A stretch of DNA of 64,000 bases, from NCBI RefSeq assembly GCF_943181405.1, contig NZ_CALPBY010000001.1, positions 248,001-312,000 on the forward strand, read 5' to 3'. The DNA comes from Cellulosimicrobium sp. Marseille-Q4280. GTDB taxonomy: Bacteria > Actinomycetota > Actinomycetes > Actinomycetales > Cellulomonadaceae. Position numbers and translations under genes: made by a program. Shown here piece after piece: positions 47,840 to 56,152 of the stretch; position 1 is the first letter of the stretch; every line of letters begins with the position of its first letter. The notes under the pieces are model-generated. The model was given only the letters and a program-made list of their open reading frames with translations. It ran no database searches and was not told where the DNA came from.

Positions 47840-47926
47840 GGTAGCGTGTCCGAGCGGCCTAAGGAGCACGCCTCGAAAGCGTGTGTGGGTGAAAGTCCAC
47901 CGTGAGTTCGAATCTCACCGCTACCG
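47840..47926 (+). tRNA. tRNA-Ser(CGA)
   Basis: 87 bases. Acceptor arms GGTAGCG and CGCTACC pair fully. The anticodon loop is CTCGAAA with anticodon CGA (reads UCG). It has the long variable arm of class II tRNAs and the T-loop GTTCGAATC. CCA is encoded at 47927-47929. The 3' end is the integration site of the island that follows. Confidence 0.95.
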
Positions 47927-47940
47927 CCACCCGAAGGGCC
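47914..47940 (+). repeat. attL
   Basis: 27 bases running from the T-stem of tRNA-Ser across the CCA end, identical to 55992-56018. Similarity between the two ends continues imperfectly for about 65 bases beyond. Confidence 0.85.
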
Positions 47941-48076
47941 CCACCCGCGAGATTCTGCGGATATGGGGCCCTTCGTCGTACCCGGCCCTCCGCCTTCACT
48001 CCGTTTTGGCCTGTCGAGTGCACCATGAGTGATCCCTCGGGGCGGAGACTGCGGCCAGAGGCGAGCGGTCCTTGAC

Positions 48077-48398: not shown

Positions 48399-49607
48399 TC
48401 ATGGCAGATCACGGTCCACGGCGACCGCCTGGGTGACAAGCTGGTCGATCACTGTCCGCAGGTCCGGGGCGACGTGGGTGCGCTTCACGTAGTGCCTGAC
48501 GGTCGTGCCCTTGTCGGAGTGGCCGAGCAGCACCGTGGCGTTCCCGATCGTCGTCGAGTTCGCGGCCTGGGTCGCGACGGTGTGTCGGAAGTCGTGCGGA
48601 GTCACCCTGGTGCCTATGGCCAGCTGGGCGTCGCGGAGCTGGTCACGAATTCGGCTGGGGGAGCGGGGCGTGCCCCGCGTGGACGGGAACACCAGCTCGT
48701 CGGGCCCGCCGTCGAGGCCGACGTCCAGTGCCTCGGTGATCGACGCGACGACGAAGGCCGGCAACGTGATCGTCCGGCGGGACGAGTCCGACTTCGGCTT
48801 GCCCTGCCGCACGAGCCGACCCTCGGCCCGGACGACCGTCCCGGTCACCGTGAGCGTCGGGACCTCCGCGCCGAGGTCGACGTCCGCCTCACGCAGCGCC
48901 AGGCACTCGGCGATCCGCAGCCCGGTGCCGAGCATCGTGTCGACGATCTGCGGCAGGAGCGTGACATTGCGACGGCCACGGGGCAGCGCAGGTCGGTTCT
49001 CCCATTCGCGGACGGCCTTGCGCAGCAGCGTGATGTCCTCGAGCCCGAGCGTGCGGACTTCGGCTCGTCGCGGCTTGCGTACGGTCACCGCGTCGCGGAC
49101 CGGGTTGAACGGTGCCGCGCCGTAGCGGACGCACATCAGCATGACCTGGGACATGACGTTGCGTGCCTGCCGCGCGGTGTCGTACTTCTGCGCCGTGCTC
49201 AGCGCCATGAGCACGCGGTTCACCGCGACGGGTGTGATCTCCCGAACGCGCAGCGCTCCGAACGCGGGTCGCAGGTCCCGTTCGAGGACACCTCGGTACG
49301 TCTCCAGCGACTGCGTCGTTATCTGTCCCTCAACGCGCTTCTCGGCGACCCAGTGGTCGAAGACGATGCCCATGCGCGTCGCAGGGGTGACCTTCGCCGT
49401 CCCGGTGACCGCGGCCTCCGTACTGGCACGGTGCAGCCTGTCCTCGAGCGCGCGCTGAGCGGCCGCTCCGGATCGGCCTCGAGCTTCGACGGTCCGGAGG
49501 TTCCCGGCGAGGTCGCGAAACCTCGCCCGTGCGCGCCACGTACCGGGGGAGATCTCCGTCCGTGTGATCCGGCCCCAGCGGCCAGGCTCGATCGGCGTGC
49601 GTGCCAT
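48399..49607 (-). CDS. int: Tyrosine recombinase (integrase)
   Basis: 402 residues. An N-terminal AP2-like arm-binding part is followed by a SAM-like core-binding domain (IVFDHWVAEKRVEGQITTQSLETY) and the catalytic domain: Arg231 in GTGLRIAECL, Lys near 270, His338-x2-Arg341 in HDFRHTVATQ, His363 in LLGHSDKG and Tyr373 in RHYV. All active-site residues are present. It catalyses recombination at the tRNA-Ser 3' end 470 bases away. The excisionase gene ends 4 bases upstream of its start. Confidence 0.95.
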   Translation of the reverse strand: MARTPIEPGRWGRITRTEISPGTWRARARFRDLAGNLRTVEARGRSGAAAQRALEDRLHRASTEAAVTGTAKVTPATRMGIVFDHWVAEKRVEGQITTQSLETYRGVLERDLRPAFGALRVREITPVAVNRVLMALSTAQKYDTARQARNVMSQVMLMCVRYGAAPFNPVRDAVTVRKPRRAEVRTLGLEDITLLRKAVREWENRPALPRGRRNVTLLPQIVDTMLGTGLRIAECLALREADVDLGAEVPTLTVTGTVVRAEGRLVRQGKPKSDSSRRTITLPAFVVASITEALDVGLDGGPDELVFPSTRGTPRSPSRIRDQLRDAQLAIGTRVTPHDFRHTVATQAANSTTIGNATVLLGHSDKGTTVRHYVKRTHVAPDLRTVIDQLVTQAVAVDRDLP

Positions 49608-50048: not shown

Positions 50049-50813
50049 TCACGCTGCGGGCGTGATCGGGACTCCGCCCTGTTGAGGGATGCGCAGCCCC
50101 AGTCGTTGGCCGGCTCCCTTCTGTGCCTTCCACTGCGCGTACTCGCGGGCGCGTGCTGCGGCCGCGTCGGCCAGTGCCTTGTCGCCTGGGTTGGTCCACC
50201 CGGAGCCCACGTAGGTCCAGGAGCCGACGACGAGGGTCGTCTCGTCGTCCTCTGCGAGGAGCCGCGTCTCGAGGTCGGCGACGTCCATCGGCGTCCCGTC
50301 GCGCTCGGCGTCGGCCTGAGCCGCTGAAACCGGACCCGAGCACGGCGCAGGCGGCCGAGCGGGATCGAGTAGCGCCGGGACTTGCTCGAGAAGTGGCCGC
50401 GAAAGCCCAGCATGTGCGCCCACTTCGCGAGCAACCGGTAGGGGCTCTCGACGCCACTGCCCGCAGACGCAGCCCTCGTCGTCCTCCGGGTCTGGCCCGG
50501 CGAGGCCGCGACACGCGGTACGGGCGCGCTCGGCGAGCCACCGGCACGTGCGGACCATGCGCTGGTGGTGCGGGCGCGGCATCGCGAGATCGGTCCCCGT
50601 GCCTTTGGTCGAGTACTTCGCGAGGTAGCCGGCCACCTGCTCGGGCCAAAGGTCGTCGGAGCCGTCGTCGTTCTCCGGTACGCCAGTGCGCACGCACCGC
50701 AGGTCGAGCTGCGTACCGAAGCGCAGCACGCGCGGGATGTTAGCGGCAGATACTGGATCGCGGAGGCGGTACCTGCCGCAGCGAACCATGCCATCACGAT
50801 GCGGTCGAGTCAC
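50049..50813 (-). pseudogene. Remnant of a RepSA-type replication initiator
   Basis: Parts of the conserved C-terminal half survive in two frames. Frame 1 has VLRFGTQLDLRCV, WPEQVAGYLAKYSTKGTG and HHQRMVRTCRWLAERA. A second frame then gives SPYRLLAKWAHMLGFRGHFS and KSRRYSIPLG. Frame 1 returns with DDETTLVVGSWTYVGSGWTNPGD. At least two frameshifts and the loss of the N-terminal half mean it cannot encode a working initiator. Its place after int-xis is the AICE order. Confidence 0.8.
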
Positions 50814-51176
50814 GACGCAACGTCCCGGCTCGTCCTAGCGACGGACGGTGTCTATAAACCGATGCAGCACCTCAAAATCGACTCCTGGTCGGAGGTCGCC
50901 GCCAAAGATCGCATCGAACGCGCTTCCTTGCTAAGTGGCCTAAGTCATTGGGAGGCCAATAACGATCCGGGCGGACGAGAACTACCTCGCGCCAAGTGCC
51001 ATGACGATAAAGCCGTCGCCGTCATCCGTCGTCCATAGATCGCTGAAGCGGTGCGACCAGCAATAATTACGACCAATGCACATGGGTAGAAGGCGGGGAC
51101 AAGGCCACAACTTTCGTGGCCGCTCGCCCGTAAAGGGTCGAAATAGAGTGCAAGTGTACGCCGAAACGGGAAGTGA
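50814..51176. other. Gene-free junction of element core and cargo
   Basis: 363 bases of falling G+C with no supported gene, promoter or repeat. It marks where the lower-G+C cargo joins the decayed replication gene. It would contain the 3' untranslated end of the PIN-like gene (stop at 51177). Confidence 0.5.
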
Positions 51177-53162
51177 TCAATTTCGCTGAGCGGCGCCGTT
51201 GACGGATGCAGACTCTGAGGCTGTGCGCTCGTACCAGGCAAGGACGCGGCGGTGCACCGCCGACTGCACGTACCGAAAAACTGATGGCAGACCAATGCCG
51301 AAGAACATGGATGCGAGTGAAACCAGGGAGTATGCCACGACGCACGCTGCGGCGATGAACCCCAGAATTCCACCAAGCGCACTAGTTGACATGAACGGAA
51401 TGGCAAAGACGGCCCCGGTCGTCGCAATAAGTCCAACAAAACTGAGCACCGTGGCGGCGATTACTCGCGATACCTTTCCGGCTACCGCCTGCAACCCAAG
51501 TGCGTGAGCCTCGAGGCGACGAGAGAGTTCTGTACTGTTGGCTTCTGACGCAGTTTGAATTGCAACGATCCGCTGATTGGCAGCTGCCGTGGCCTCGTGA
51601 GCGGTGCGCGCATCCTCGAGTGCTTCCTCTTGGATCGCTCGCCTGGCGCGCTCGAGGACTCTGCGCGCGCTTCCCTCGGTAAAAGCCTCAGGATCTGAGT
51701 GTGTCTCAAGCATTATCAGCGAACGTACTTGTAGGGACTGCCGAAGTAGAACGTAGTCGACCTCCGAAACTCTCTGAGTGACGCGGAGATCCTCGATCTT
51801 CTCCAGATACAATCGCCATACGTGATCCTCGGCGCGCATTATCGAATAGCTGTCAGTGACCAGGTTGCGCACGGGCAAATCCGGCGCCTTGATTTCCTGA
51901 GAGACCCACAGGTGCGTCGTTAGGGCAAAGTCGGGCATGCAGAGTGGAATCGACCCGCGGTCGATCTCGTCGAGTTTCTCAAAGGCCCTACCCGCCCTAA
52001 CAAGAGCCATGTTGTGGGTTACGAAGATTGCGCTCGTCCGGTGGAGCGTCGTGGCGGATCGACCGCGTCGTAGGCGGTAGATTGCCGTGATCGAGCCCAG
52101 GTCTTTCTGGCGTGCGCTGGAACTGCTGTAGTTCACATGTTCCTGAAGCGTCCGTTCGAGAAGGTCTTCATCCAGAGTAAGCGCCGCTACGTGAGCTGGT
52201 TTAACTCGCACTTCGACGCCTATCGCGTCAAGCCGATCCTCCAAGCTGTCTGATAGCGCGATGACGTCGGTGACCTCCCAGCCCGCTGAGACCATGTATT
52301 CTGACGTCTCACCATAGTATCTCGCGGTTCCCCGCCTTACAATCTCCGTACAAGCGGCAAGTATCCCGCGGATCTCCCTGATCGTATGTTCGAAACAGGC
52401 GATCTTTGCCCCGCGGCCTGCTGCGAGGCGCGCGAGGTCCGAGGCGAGGTCCTCGAAGGCTGGGCCGCTGGCCCCGACGAGACGCAGAATGACTGTCGTG
52501 TCGAGATATATGGTCAAGCCGTCGAGTCTTGCGTCAAATTCTGCCGGGTCAGGGAAGTAGAGCGCGGAAGCAATGATGGCTCCCTTTGCGACGTGGGAAA
52601 GATACTCAAAAGCCTGAGCATCTCTTTCCTGCGCCTCGACTACAAAGGAGGCCACCACGAAATCGAGCGGTTCTGAACCATCCTCGATGGGAGGAAGCGA
52701 GGTGTTGTTGACCATTGCCGCAAGGAGGGGGGAGGTGTGGCGCTGGATGAAAGACCATAGCGCGTTGCCAAACTCCTCAGGCGAGACCTTGTGTTCGAAG
52801 ACACGTTCGGCATGGGACGCGCCCTGGTAAATGAGGGCCTCGTACTCCCGGCTAGTTGCTGCCCGAACGCCGCTCAAGTCAAACCTCGCAAGGCGCTCTC
52901 GATCGATGTGCAGGACGCCATGCTGGCGCCTCAAGAGTTCGTTGCGGGCGGCACGACGGCTTATGGTCTGCAGCGCGGCGCCGGGCATGGTGAGGGCGAA
53001 CTCGTCCTCGATCTCTCGTTGTAGCTCGGGTATCGCAACCACGTCGGTGCGTGAGTGGTAGAGCCGGTCAAGCACCATCGGTTCGAACCGGGAGAGGACG
53101 TCGCGTCCGAGGCGATTGGCATCAACAGTCAAGATTGCCATGGAGACTGCGGCGTCGGTCAC
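51177..53162 (-). CDS. Large PIN-like protein with C-terminal membrane anchor
   Basis: 661 residues from the GTG at 53162 (AGGTAGG six bases ahead; an ATG at 53141 is the alternative). An N-terminal part of about 205 residues is helical. A PIN-like nuclease fold follows (residues 217-400): Asp221 in LTIYLDTTVILRLV, Glu in HTIREIRGIL, Asp in QKDLGSITAIY and AIFVTHNMAL. Then come helical and coiled-coil stretches (ARRAIQEEALEDARTAHEAT) and two membrane helices (IAATVLSFVGLIATTGAVFA; GFIAAACVVAYSLVSLASMF). Codon use is visibly less G+C-rich than the host. It is downstream of, and probably co-transcribed with, the SEC-C gene. Role unknown; a membrane-tethered RNase in phage or plasmid defence is my inference. 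Confidence 0.7.
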   Translation of the reverse strand: MTDAAVSMAILTVDANRLGRDVLSRFEPMVLDRLYHSRTDVVAIPELQREIEDEFALTMPGAALQTISRRAARNELLRRQHGVLHIDRERLARFDLSGVRAATSREYEALIYQGASHAERVFEHKVSPEEFGNALWSFIQRHTSPLLAAMVNNTSLPPIEDGSEPLDFVVASFVVEAQERDAQAFEYLSHVAKGAIIASALYFPDPAEFDARLDGLTIYLDTTVILRLVGASGPAFEDLASDLARLAAGRGAKIACFEHTIREIRGILAACTEIVRRGTARYYGETSEYMVSAGWEVTDVIALSDSLEDRLDAIGVEVRVKPAHVAALTLDEDLLERTLQEHVNYSSSSARQKDLGSITAIYRLRRGRSATTLHRTSAIFVTHNMALVRAGRAFEKLDEIDRGSIPLCMPDFALTTHLWVSQEIKAPDLPVRNLVTDSYSIMRAEDHVWRLYLEKIEDLRVTQRVSEVDYVLLRQSLQVRSLIMLETHSDPEAFTEGSARRVLERARRAIQEEALEDARTAHEATAAANQRIVAIQTASEANSTELSRRLEAHALGLQAVAGKVSRVIAATVLSFVGLIATTGAVFAIPFMSTSALGGILGFIAAACVVAYSLVSLASMFFGIGLPSVFRYVQSAVHRRVLAWYERTASESASVNGAAQRN

Positions 53163-53262
53163 CGTATACCTACCTGGCTCAGGCCAAGCGCCTTGTGCGC
53201 CCGGCTAGTCGGATGAGGACGACTCAAGAATGAATATGCGATGACGTGCGCGCGAGGTGAAT

Positions 53263-54711
53263 TCAACGGATGCGAATGGATTCGCAGCAGAACTTGTGCT
53301 TTAGGCCGCTTCCGCAATCGCACGGTCGGTAGTTCCCCTCGACATACCCGCGAACTTCAGGATCTTCACGGCCGGCAGAGAACCAATCTGAGATCGAAGC
53401 GCCCTCAGAAACGCTTACGCTCATGGATGGTTCCGGAGGGATTCCCCACCGGTCACCCATCTGACTCGTGGAAGTCTGCACCCCCGATACCTCTTCGCTA
53501 AATTGCTGCTGGTGCTTGACGAGAGCTGTCCAGATCGGCAGGGAGCTCTTGTCCGTTTTGCGCCCTTCCACATAGGAAGACACCACAGGCACACCCGCGC
53601 CGGCCGCGGTTGCGAGCCCAGGCGTACCAGCCAAGAGATCCACCGTAAAACCTGCCAGAATTCCAAACGAAGAGTTCTTGAGCTTTACTCCAAACTCTCT
53701 CAGAAATCCTGAAGAAGCTGCAGACTCAGCTCTCTCGATGCTAGGGGTGAGAATCTCACGGTCCTGGTCGCGCGCAAAAAGGTCCAGGGCGTCCGCGTCC
53801 CCGACTGGAGCATTCTGGTAAGCGAAGTGGAGATCTCTCCGAAAAGCCCCGAAGGCGTCATCGTCATGTACGCGTGCAATGAGATCCGGTGATAGGCGAG
53901 TAAAGATTGGCATCTTGGACGCCAGCAGCGCTGAGGAGACCTGACCGGAGGGGGACGGGGCGCTGTCCAAACCTTCGGAGGCCAGCCACATTTCGTGTCT
54001 GAATGGGGCGGTATATGTGGCACCCATAGTGGTTGAGATTGCATACTCGCGCGCAAAATAGCGGATAGCGTGACCCTGGGCCCGTAGTAGTTGCTCATTC
54101 CGTTCCCCCCCAACGAAAGCGAATAAGCCTCTAACGTTGTCTTCGGTCGCAAGATCGCTGGGGCTGAATCTGCGAGCGTATGCGTCCATGTCGCCACTAA
54201 GCGCCGTGCTCAACATTTCCCTGAGTTGATCGATCCTATTACGTTCCCGCTTGACGAGTAGCTCGCCTGGTGCGAGCACCACAATGCCGCGATCAATCAG
54301 CGGCTTCAAATATTCGAGTCTTGCTAGGGCGTTCTCCATGAATGCGCGGGTGGCTCGTACGTTCGGCACTCCGTCAGGCCCAAGGAATCCTGGACGCGCG
54401 GACATCATGTGCTCGTTCGTGTACTGTTCGGGTGCGAACCAATCGTAAACCGGATCTCGTACAACAATCTGATCGGTGTAAAGCAGGCTTGTCAACAGTA
54501 GGTCGCCGTGTACTGACCCAAGGTTGGCCGATGGCCATCCGCCTAGGTACGATCTGTGACCCTTCGGTGGTTCGGTATTGATTTGCTCGATGTAGAGTTT
54601 CTGAACCTCTTCTCCAAGCTCGTACAGGGCTGACCCAGGCACGCTCCAGAAACTGCGCGAGTTCCGCAGCGTGAAAAAGTCCGAGATGAGTTCGACGACA
54701 TTCGTTGTCAC
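53263..54711 (-). CDS. SEC-C motif protein of unknown function
   Basis: 482 residues. The first 440 have no recognised domain and are mostly helical (ISDFFTLRNSRSFWSVPG; RSYLGGWPSANLGSVHGDLLLTSLLY at the start). One hydrophobic Gly/Ala stretch (FGILAGFTVDLLAGTPGLATAAGAG) lies near 365. The last 20 residues are a SEC-C zinc motif, Cys464-x-Cys466 and Cys475-Cys476 (RPCDCGSGLKHKFCC), as found at the end of SecA and of many accessory proteins. Low G+C for this genome. First gene of the cargo pair; its stop is about 100 bases before the PIN-like start. Confidence 0.75.
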   Translation of the reverse strand: MTTNVVELISDFFTLRNSRSFWSVPGSALYELGEEVQKLYIEQINTEPPKGHRSYLGGWPSANLGSVHGDLLLTSLLYTDQIVVRDPVYDWFAPEQYTNEHMMSARPGFLGPDGVPNVRATRAFMENALARLEYLKPLIDRGIVVLAPGELLVKRERNRIDQLREMLSTALSGDMDAYARRFSPSDLATEDNVRGLFAFVGGERNEQLLRAQGHAIRYFAREYAISTTMGATYTAPFRHEMWLASEGLDSAPSPSGQVSSALLASKMPIFTRLSPDLIARVHDDDAFGAFRRDLHFAYQNAPVGDADALDLFARDQDREILTPSIERAESAASSGFLREFGVKLKNSSFGILAGFTVDLLAGTPGLATAAGAGVPVVSSYVEGRKTDKSSLPIWTALVKHQQQFSEEVSGVQTSTSQMGDRWGIPPEPSMSVSVSEGASISDWFSAGREDPEVRGYVEGNYRPCDCGSGLKHKFCCESIRIR

Positions 54712-55039
54712 GAGGTGCTCCGTCTATTGCCCAGCCGCTGGTGCGTGGGGGACAGCATAACGATTGCCGCCCCGCGATGAGATCATCCCGCCGGGTGATT
54801 TCCGCGCTCTGGACCATGTACTGGCCCAGGCGCGCGGTGAGAACTTTCCGTACTGGCTCAAGGCGCGGCTTCGCCGCGCATCCGCCGTCCGGCGGGGCCC
54901 CGCGCTCCGCTCGCAAGCTCGCTGGCGCGCACCCCGCCGGATCGCCAGACGTCACGAAGAAGGCGGCTCCGGAGCTGGTCCGGAACCGCCTCACGCCTTG
55001 CACTTCACCCTGCGCGACCTCGCCCGTCGCGACTCGTCT
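54712..55039. other. Gene-free stretch upstream of the cargo pair
   Basis: 328 bases between the SEC-C start and a small ORF. The first part should hold the cargo promoter, but no convincing -35/-10 pair is visible. G+C climbs back to host level from about 54,850. Confidence 0.4.
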
Positions 55040-55414
55040 TCACGCCATGCTCGACCACCACGCCTCATCCCGCGGGGCAGTCTCCAGCTCCTCTCTACGA
55101 GTCCGGACGTGCTCGATGAACCGGTCTGGGAGTCGGACGCCGTGGTCCACCACATAGTGCCGCAGGCCTTCGGGCCAGACGAACGTCCCGTCCGTGAACT
55201 CGAGATTGCCGTTTCGCTGTCCGCAGATTCGGCACGTAGACCAACCCATGTATGCGCTGGCGACGTGACCACGGGCGAGATAGTCGGCGGCCATGTCGCG
55301 ATCCTCTACGTCCCACTCGGTGTCGACGAAACGGACCGGATTCGGCCAACCCGGTCGCGTGTGCGGCCCGTCCCAGTAGCCCATGACCGTCAAGGTCGCG
55401 TTGTGCACCTGCAT
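55040..55414 (-). CDS. Conserved hypothetical protein with CxxC
   Basis: About 124 residues (start at 55414 or the adjacent ATG). Features: RFVDTEWDVEDRDMAADYLARG, then TCRICGQRNGNLEFTDGTF (Cys-x2-Cys) and LRHYVVDHGVRLPDRFIEHV. The layout looks like a small zinc protein seen in actinobacterial elements; I cannot name the family. It lies inside the island, near the right end. Confidence 0.65.
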   Translation of the reverse strand: MQVHNATLTVMGYWDGPHTRPGWPNPVRFVDTEWDVEDRDMAADYLARGHVASAYMGWSTCRICGQRNGNLEFTDGTFVWPEGLRHYVVDHGVRLPDRFIEHVRTRREELETAPRDEAWWSSMA

Positions 55415-55417
55415 CAC

Positions 55418-55991
55418 CTCTCCATCCGGCCCCGTACCGACAGCCGAGCATCCGGCCGACTCCAGCCCGTGTCAAGGGCGCCTGCGGCGTCGCTGCGCGA
55501 TGGCCTGCGCCACCCGTGACCCGGACCTCCGCCGACCTCTTGTGCTCCGCTATCGGTTCGGCGCCTCCGAGTGTCCCCGCCTGGCGTACGGTCACCGCGT
55601 GGACGAACTTCCGATTGGCCTGCGACTTCTTTCTGCGGCGGCGACTAAGGAACAACTCATCAACGCTGTCTGGGACCTCCGTGACTCGGCCTACGACGCC
55701 CCCGACACATGGACCGCGTTCAGTCAGAGGTGTTCTTCCAGTGCCTTGGCGAAGAGCTCGAACGTGGATCGGCCGACGGGGGCAGCGCTGTGCCGGCCGA
55801 TTCTCTGGCCCGGGCTGTCGGTAGGGCGCGCGGGTAGTCGAACGCCGGTGAGGCCGCCACTTACCCTCCTCTTTGATGTCCAAGCGCCTCCCGAAGGGTC
55901 TGGCGCGCTGCATACCGCGACGAGCCATTTGGCCAGGTCAGGAGCGAGATCGTCCGGTACGAACAACCTCGTCCTAGGTCTGCGACCGAAG
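55418..55991. other. Degraded right end of the island
   Basis: 574 bases without an intact gene. One rightward fragment from a GTG at 55599 looks coding (VDELPIGLRLLSAAATKEQL, then INAVWDLRDSAYDAPDTWTA) but loses that character within 60 codons. A leftward frame at 55724-56008 runs over attR and is not convincing. Best read as decayed element genes. Confidence 0.5.
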
Positions 55992-56018
55992 CTCACCGCT
56001 ACCGCCACCCGAAGGGCC
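55992..56018 (+). repeat. attR
   Basis: 27-bp copy of the tRNA-Ser 3' end, identical to 47914-47940. It marks the right border of the island. The similarity past the repeat (about 65 bases, imperfect) ends before the next chromosomal gene. Confidence 0.85.
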
Positions 56019-56152
56019 TCACCCGCAGAATCTTGCGGCTGTGGCGCCCTTCGTCGTACCCCGGCCCTCCGTCTTCACTCCGTTGTGCTCCGTGGACTGC
56101 GCGAGCGGGCGACGTCGGGCGCCCCAGCGCAGCCGCTGCGACCATGATGTGC

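Follow-up and report, generated by a model that had tools for sequence, protein, structure and literature searches.

PIN domains cut RNA, and VapC, which has this fold, is paired with VapB. DS-3 (DefensePredictor, PMC13092281) is described as one protein with a PIN ribonuclease domain and no cognate antitoxin, its catalytic residues being required for phage defence, and DS-5, from the same source, as a PIN nuclease acting with a second protein of unrelated fold, both of which are required. Here we analyze a 64,000-nucleotide stretch of the 4.86-Mb genome of Cellulosimicrobium sp. Marseille-Q4280 (positions 248001-312000 on contig 1, hereafter the window), in which a tRNA-bound integrative element carries two cargo genes, one encoding a membrane-anchored PIN protein and the other a protein that ends in a SEC-C zinc motif. 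A previous interpretation based on the letters of the window alone (the sequence-only reading) had proposed that the two genes form one paired defence system. Our results reveal that PIN and SEC-C are not a conserved unit, and we hold it probable, if well short of certain, that the PIN protein acts by itself in defence as a membrane-anchored PIN ribonuclease, SEC-C being a separate cargo gene or an accessory one. What looks like a two-gene system can thus be two unrelated cargo genes sharing one slot.

Association of the PIN and SEC-C genes

The sequence-only reading had proposed the co-occurrence of both families as a check on the pair and homologues found apart as its refutation; the check was run, homologues did turn up apart, and only the window genome was found to carry both. 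Using a two-row SEC-C profile, SEC-C was detected in one of 11 PIN-positive records searched whole, the window genome itself, and the SEC-C body was absent from the ten others, one of which holds a PIN fragment only. Seven of these ten records are plasmids and one is a 15.7-kb virus contig, host genomes and two E. coli genomes lying outside the search. Of two SEC-C-positive genomes, PIN was present in that of the window; the other, G748 (81% complete), contains no PIN relative in its genome, and none within a 20-kb stretch around SEC-C. Three further PIN-positive genomes (G558, G666, G795) were also part of the class draw, where SEC-C appeared only in the window genome, in G748 and as six weak short matches (E 0.0011-0.0096, 31-94 residues) that were not counted as relatives. 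Local tblastn against 20 PIN loci that had been fetched, of which two show a gene already represented, found no SEC-C body; a bare SEC-C motif in Salinibius (E about 0.07) and chance-level matches were all that appeared. Because SEC-C is absent from the other PIN records searched whole and no PIN relative was found in G748, the two do not constitute a conserved unit, and the paired system was not upheld. A facultative link may exist in the window element alone.

SEC-C motifs bind zinc, and the C-x-C-x8-C-C motif is intact at the C terminus of both the window protein (CDCGSGLKHKFCC) and its relative (CDCGSGLKFKFCC, L065). That the protein carries this motif and otherwise no recognizable domain, as first noticed in the sequence, was borne out, although profile models score the motif weakly. 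Pfam, its SEC-C model included, returned no family at E<=1 for the window protein and none at E<=0.05 for the relative, and NCBIfam gave sub-cutoff tail matches only (best 0.091). Conserved blocks span the full length of the protein and its relative, zinc motif included, and we therefore regard it as a real protein family. With a query beginning after the first 42 residues, a class sample of 394 genomes yielded one true relative besides the protein itself, in G748 (E 7.6e-131, 49% over 427 residues; 46-49% identical to the window protein). This relative is confined to G748 among 22 genomes of its order, and in the order sample of the window genome the protein was found in one of 149 genomes, its own. 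There was no match on plasmids even at E<=1 (none for the relative at E<=0.1) and no relative in a pattern scan of viral contigs. A phylum sample gave matches in 4 of 396; apart from the protein itself, these three were short C-terminal tails in frames of 889-1050 amino acids (aa), which were taken as SecA. In G748 the relative (L065:10188-11636) is a low-G+C gene between reductoisomerase-like and acetyltransferase-like genes, named by eye; since this sole relative sits among ordinary-looking genes, independent movement of SEC-C proteins of this family is suggested.

Architecture and relatives of the PIN protein

As modelled, the PIN protein is built from an N-terminal winged-helix-like domain, a PIN domain, a helical stalk and two C-terminal membrane helices (Table 1). 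Winged helices bind nucleic acid. Structure prediction, which had been suggested for both proteins, succeeded for one of them: the PIN model (mean predicted local distance difference test, pLDDT, 58.6) matches VapC/PIN domains, the matched VapC chains being ~130 aa long, and shows a single long helix (residues 496-587) leading up to and into the membrane part, which may correspond to the coiled coil noted from the sequence, and the single-sequence SEC-C model (mean pLDDT 36.3) was too poor for use. The PIN-like fold with acidic residues that the sequence-only reading had recognized agrees with the structural match and with the invariance of D221, E263 and D354 in all 17 aligned PIN sequences (16 distinct); the two membrane helices it had described are predicted in 16/17 sequences, the window protein among them, with one helix in L080. 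Across the 17 rows protein size ranges from 632 to 697 aa, and the window protein shares 18-29% identity with the other rows. The alignment retains two identical proteins (L017 and L021) as separate rows and omits a Listeria plasmid fragment (L018), a 3'-truncated Enterococcus copy nearly the same as L005 (L006), two loci with the same genes as L007 and L003 (L019 and L020, respectively) and four unfetched E. faecium plasmid matches.

Pfam, PADLOC and NCBIfam contain no dedicated family for either window protein, and PADLOC-DB 2.0.0 (2023) gave no match at E<=1 for the two. Among seven PIN members, the PIN model PF13470 matched two, weakly (best 3.3e-4), and PADLOC gave three matches, each in a single member (best 0.0031); PHROGs, searched with four rows of A4, gave single-member matches only, the best being phrog_25194 (0.0016), of unknown function. 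The family thus has no model of its own in Pfam or PADLOC (seven members scanned) or in NCBIfam (window protein only), though its members come from four phyla: Actinomycetota, Bacillota, Bacteroidota and Pseudomonadota. None of the papers returned by literature searches was recognized as describing the PIN protein, and six of its accessions were absent from main texts, most subscription papers and supplements lying outside that search.

The distribution of PIN relatives is scattered (4/394 genomes in the class sample and 3/200 in the family, self included), and they reside on plasmids, prophages and an integrative element; the Kluyvera and Salinibius copies lie on contigs of 268 and 255 kb and are probably chromosomal. 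Pattern scans of viral contigs and genome contigs detected no relative of the window PIN protein; viral contigs held none for A2, A3 or A6, and phage records gave no match for the window or the Sporosarcina PIN protein. Two matches obtained with A1 in the phylum sample were left out of the family as fragments (49 and about 70 residues).

Several of these relatives occupy sites typical of defence genes. In E. coli FDAARGOS_1337, a homologue (WP_204691543.1) in divergent orientation lies between the tail sheath and tail-fibre assembly genes of a P2-like prophage, the locus at which P2 carries fun(Z) in the same orientation. The locus that includes fun is described as a second defence-enriched P2 locus (PMC9519451), and the P2 hotspot of PMC9122126 is another site, between gpA and gpQ. 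Fun(Z) was ruled out as a homologue of the PIN protein (BLASTP E 3.4, hhalign probability 0.2%). In another P2-like prophage, that of E. coli MEI7BO1-21, the PIN gene lies between an ogr-like gene and gene D, from which a small gene separates it, and the surroundings of PIN on an IMG/VR contig resemble this arrangement by eye. In Salinibius halmophilus (L023:4226-13931) the PIN gene stands between hsdS and hsdR within a type I restriction-modification (R-M) operon. Elsewhere, one 299-aa gene (weak REase_II match, 0.0036) separates PIN from an Eco57I-type methyltransferase (L082); GmrSD_N, Vsr, C5-methyltransferase and HNH genes lie near PIN in L083, and a GmrSD gene lies 4 kb away in L079. According to annotation, a methyltransferase-helicase-ATPase cluster is found about 200 bases from the Hymenobacter PIN gene, and the Sporosarcina gene lies upstream of nucleotidyltransferase-ThiF-Mov34-SAVED genes resembling a cyclic oligonucleotide-based antiphage signalling system (CBASS), with a recombinase gene intervening. 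Among the seven loci from whole-genome searches (L022, L023 and L079-L083), integrases were seen by eye at one.

Some neighbourhoods have features of their own. The Salinibius operon is of unusual make-up, continuing with a YgjP-like metallopeptidase, after which comes a trypsin-like protein bearing a SEC-C tail. Directly downstream of PIN on the Pantoea plasmid (L007:8004-8420) is a 138-aa gene whose product has a hydrophobic tail and matches HEPN (RiboL-PSP) below cut-off, and the Hymenobacter gene has beside it a 137-aa gene without a Pfam family. On an E. faecium plasmid (L006:6001-7815) the PIN gene is cut short at its 3' end and adjoins an IS256-family element, and on a Listeria plasmid (L018:4995-5756) about the last third of it is left behind an IS6 transposase gene; these cut-short copies indicate that the PIN gene decays on some plasmids.

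The integrative element and its cargo slot

Both cargo genes were recovered on one strand, with G+C contents of 0.590 (PIN) and 0.563 (SEC-C) vs 0.722 for the window, in keeping with the two lower-G+C genes about 100 bases apart that had been reported from the sequence; each has a single match in its own genome. A scan for terminator-like sites found none in the gap between them and leaves other promoter types uncovered. Their position as cargo in a tRNA-bound element was likewise confirmed by the tRNA-Ser(CGA) gene, the tyrosine recombinase, the RepSA fragment and the repeat of the tRNA 3' end (Table 1). The att-like repeats lie 8,078 bases apart (identity 85% and 83% for D3 and D6), giving an element of ~8.1 kb. 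The best stretch of the RepSA fragment covers positions 267-351 of 438, and by eye no FtsK-sized unexplained open reading frame (ORF) that could encode an FtsK-like translocase is present among the ORFs listed between the repeats; with a partial RepSA and no FtsK-like gene, we therefore read the element as a relic.

Table 1. Features of the element and its cargo genes, in window coordinates
Feature	Position	Strand	Details
tRNA-Ser(CGA), integration site	47840-47929	plus	ARAGORN
att-like direct repeat, tRNA side (tRNA 3' end and hairpin behind)	47909-48021	plus	families D3, D6
tyrosine recombinase (integrase)	48399-49607	minus	402 aa; PF00589 4.6e-19
RepSA (pSAM2 replication initiator) fragment, backbone	50049-50813	minus	PF20199 2.6e-19
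variable cargo slot between two backbone blocks	50741-54836	.	comparison with sister L044
membrane-anchored PIN protein gene	51177-53162	minus	661 aa, GTG start
two C-terminal membrane helices (predicted)	51312-51464	minus	residues 567-585 and 599-617, Kyte-Doolittle scan
helical, coiled-coil-like stalk 5' of membrane helices	51474-51677	minus	residues about 496-563, predicted model
PIN domain	51927-52517	minus	residues about 216-412
PIN D354	52101-52103	minus	
PIN E263	52374-52376	minus	
PIN D221	52500-52502	minus	
winged-helix-like domain, N-terminal	52881-53093	minus	residues about 24-94; structural match
intergenic gap without terminator-like site	53163-53262	minus	100 bases
SEC-C-tailed protein gene, neighbour rather than demonstrated partner	53263-54711	minus	482 aa, GTG start; fold unassigned
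SEC-C type zinc motif (C464, C466, C475, C476)	53284-53322	minus	sequence
backbone gene, right end	55040-55417	minus	125 aa; weak DUF7919 (PF25535 1e-5, 26.2 bits vs cut-off 27)
att-like direct repeat, far end	55987-56100	plus	

Within the genus, at least part of the query region is matched in all 17 genomes, that of the window among them, and 12 stretches were fetched from 11 of the 16 sister genomes. The tRNA-Ser(CGA) gene is present in 11 of these 12 stretches, the twelfth being a second contig of G539. In G535 (L044) the backbone blocks corresponding to 50122-50740 and 54837-55581 share about 92% identity with the window and the cargo between them differs; ORFs similar to the 125-aa backbone gene occur in L044 and L046. 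Sister cargo was scanned with Pfam and PADLOC in four of the 11 fetched sisters, picked after ORF inspection. G535 carries GmrSD_N (PADLOC NsnA 1.2e-54, PD-T4-2_A 2.5e-27) and, behind it, a HEPN-like gene that scores under the Pfam cut-off, G539 carries DndB (7.3e-50), and G545, in which the right block is unaligned, carries a D12 methyltransferase together with a protein that matches PLD below cut-off. The cargo of G541 (L046:2631-5500) is an AAA ATPase with an N-terminal IF2_N domain and sub-cutoff STAND-like matches. Beside that ATPase is a protein of 361 aa that weakly matches a PADLOC candidate (PDC-M34B, 4.4e-6), and the two are possibly a defence pair of their own. Between the end of the cargo and the conserved right block there are 65 to 250 bases in G535, G541, G539 and the window. 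Because sister cargo differs and ends near the conserved block, we read the slot as repeatedly taking defence-type genes, and tRNA-Ser(CGA) has the look of a hotspot for small integrative elements with different defence-type cargo in four sister species (L044, L045, L046, L051).

Interpretation and comparison with known systems

In the reading we favour, the PIN gene would be a single-gene defence cassette carried as cargo. The helical stalk and two-helix membrane hairpin would place the enzyme at the inner face of the cell membrane, where the nuclease would most likely be kept inactive until it is triggered by phage infection or incoming foreign DNA, with either the winged-helix/linker part or the membrane anchor as the likely sensor. 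Activated PIN would then cut RNA (tRNA, rRNA or phage mRNA) and stop the infection, probably with loss of the cell; SEC-C would be an independent second cargo gene in the slot, at most accessory in this lineage. We infer ribonuclease activity, membrane topology, trigger, RNA target and defence outcome alike. Because relatives are found at fun(Z), in a type I restriction operon and near type II methyltransferase, GmrSD or CBASS-like genes, the defence idea is strengthened for PIN alone, though not proven, and it draws on the mobile and defence-type contexts of those relatives. Of what the sequence-only reading had proposed, the nuclease-like, membrane-tethered protein and its defence-like placement are thus sustained by fold, helices and relatives at defence sites, and the defence role itself keeps the standing of a proposal.

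Several observations weigh against this reading. No Pfam PIN model matches the window protein itself, Foldseek returned no match at E<=0.001 and thus did not name the PIN fold with confidence, and the structure model is of middling confidence by the mean pLDDT given above, with residues about 321-448 largely below 50. Two residues vary among the 17 rows, N384 being replaced by serine in two and T382 by serine in one. The SEC-C neighbour goes unexplained. About half of the 15 distinct other PIN loci have no clear defence neighbour (Kluyvera, Pantoea, Klebsiella, Arthrobacter, Enterococcus, the second P2-like prophage, L080 and L081), neighbours having been judged by eye for Kluyvera, L081 and the IMG/VR contig, by annotation for Klebsiella and Enterococcus, and by scanned proteins for L080 (one) and Arthrobacter (two). 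R-M or GmrSD neighbours occur at four of the seven whole-genome-search loci, a count that lacks a background rate and is not a test, and the plasmid and prophage matches come from mobile-element and E. coli collections, which cannot alone show enrichment.

The same evidence bears on three other explanations. A toxin-antitoxin or addiction module by which the mobile element maintains itself in its host, with any phage effect secondary, would account for the VapC-type PIN fold and for PIN genes on plasmids, prophages and an integrative element; it fits poorly with proteins of 632-697 aa, against ~130 aa for the matched VapC chains, that have their own winged-helix and membrane parts, with small neighbours that differ between Pantoea (HEPN-like) and Hymenobacter, and with the probably chromosomal Kluyvera and Salinibius copies, and we consider it unlikely. 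Somewhat less likely still is a non-defence membrane-bound protein for RNA processing or regulation in mobile elements, controlling for instance copy number or expression through its winged helix. Such a role would suit the winged-helix-like domain and the loci that lack a clear defence neighbour, but the three acidic residues are strictly retained, presence is scattered, and the positions within a type I R-M operon and at P2 fun(Z) are ones that defence cargo typically takes. The least likely is an obligate two-gene defence in which SEC-C senses or restrains, PIN is the membrane effector and both are needed: the genes do share a strand, a 100-base gap without a terminator-like site and one common low-G+C block filling the cargo slot, with SEC-C upstream of PIN where a sensor or antitoxin could be, but all ten other PIN records and the 20 PIN loci lack the SEC-C body, and the sole SEC-C relative stands apart in a genome in which no PIN relative was found.

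Extending the favoured single-protein reading, we offer as a conjecture that may well not hold that the PIN proteins are an unnamed, antitoxin-free family of single-protein membrane-anchored RNases in immunity, present in at least four phyla and thinly spread on plasmids, prophages and integrative elements, with a winged-helix sensor and a membrane-docked PIN effector, and that SEC-C was acquired here as an optional regulator. Membrane-tethered abortive-infection effectors usually damage the membrane; a tethered RNase, if true, raises the question of why it is held there: it might need to detect the incoming genome, await release or stay away from the ribosome. Because one member comes from E. 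coli, at the P2 fun(Z) locus, the family is directly testable in K-12.

Set against described systems, the locus departs from VapBC, a small single-domain toxin with a small antitoxin gene, in that the PIN protein has 661 aa, several domains and a membrane anchor, no small conserved neighbour was seen, and the gene upstream encodes the 482-aa SEC-C protein. The element resembles a pSAM2-type actinomycete integrative and conjugative element in its integrase at a tRNA gene and its RepSA match, and differs from one in that its RepSA is fragmentary and no FtsK-like gene was seen, whereas sister L044 keeps an FtsK-like gene. With P2 Fun(Z), the E. coli PIN homologue shares locus and orientation and no sequence relation. 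DS-5 offers the likeness of a PIN nuclease beside a second protein of unrelated fold, but its partner is DUF5830/AcrIF4-like and is not described as SEC-C in PMC13092281, and the second gene of the window is not conserved with PIN. DS-3 likewise consists of one PIN protein without a cognate antitoxin; its PIN domain is described there as split between the N and C terminus, whereas that of the window protein is central, behind the winged helix and before the two membrane helices. Compared by description only, DS-3 appears to be the nearest precedent for the window PIN protein.

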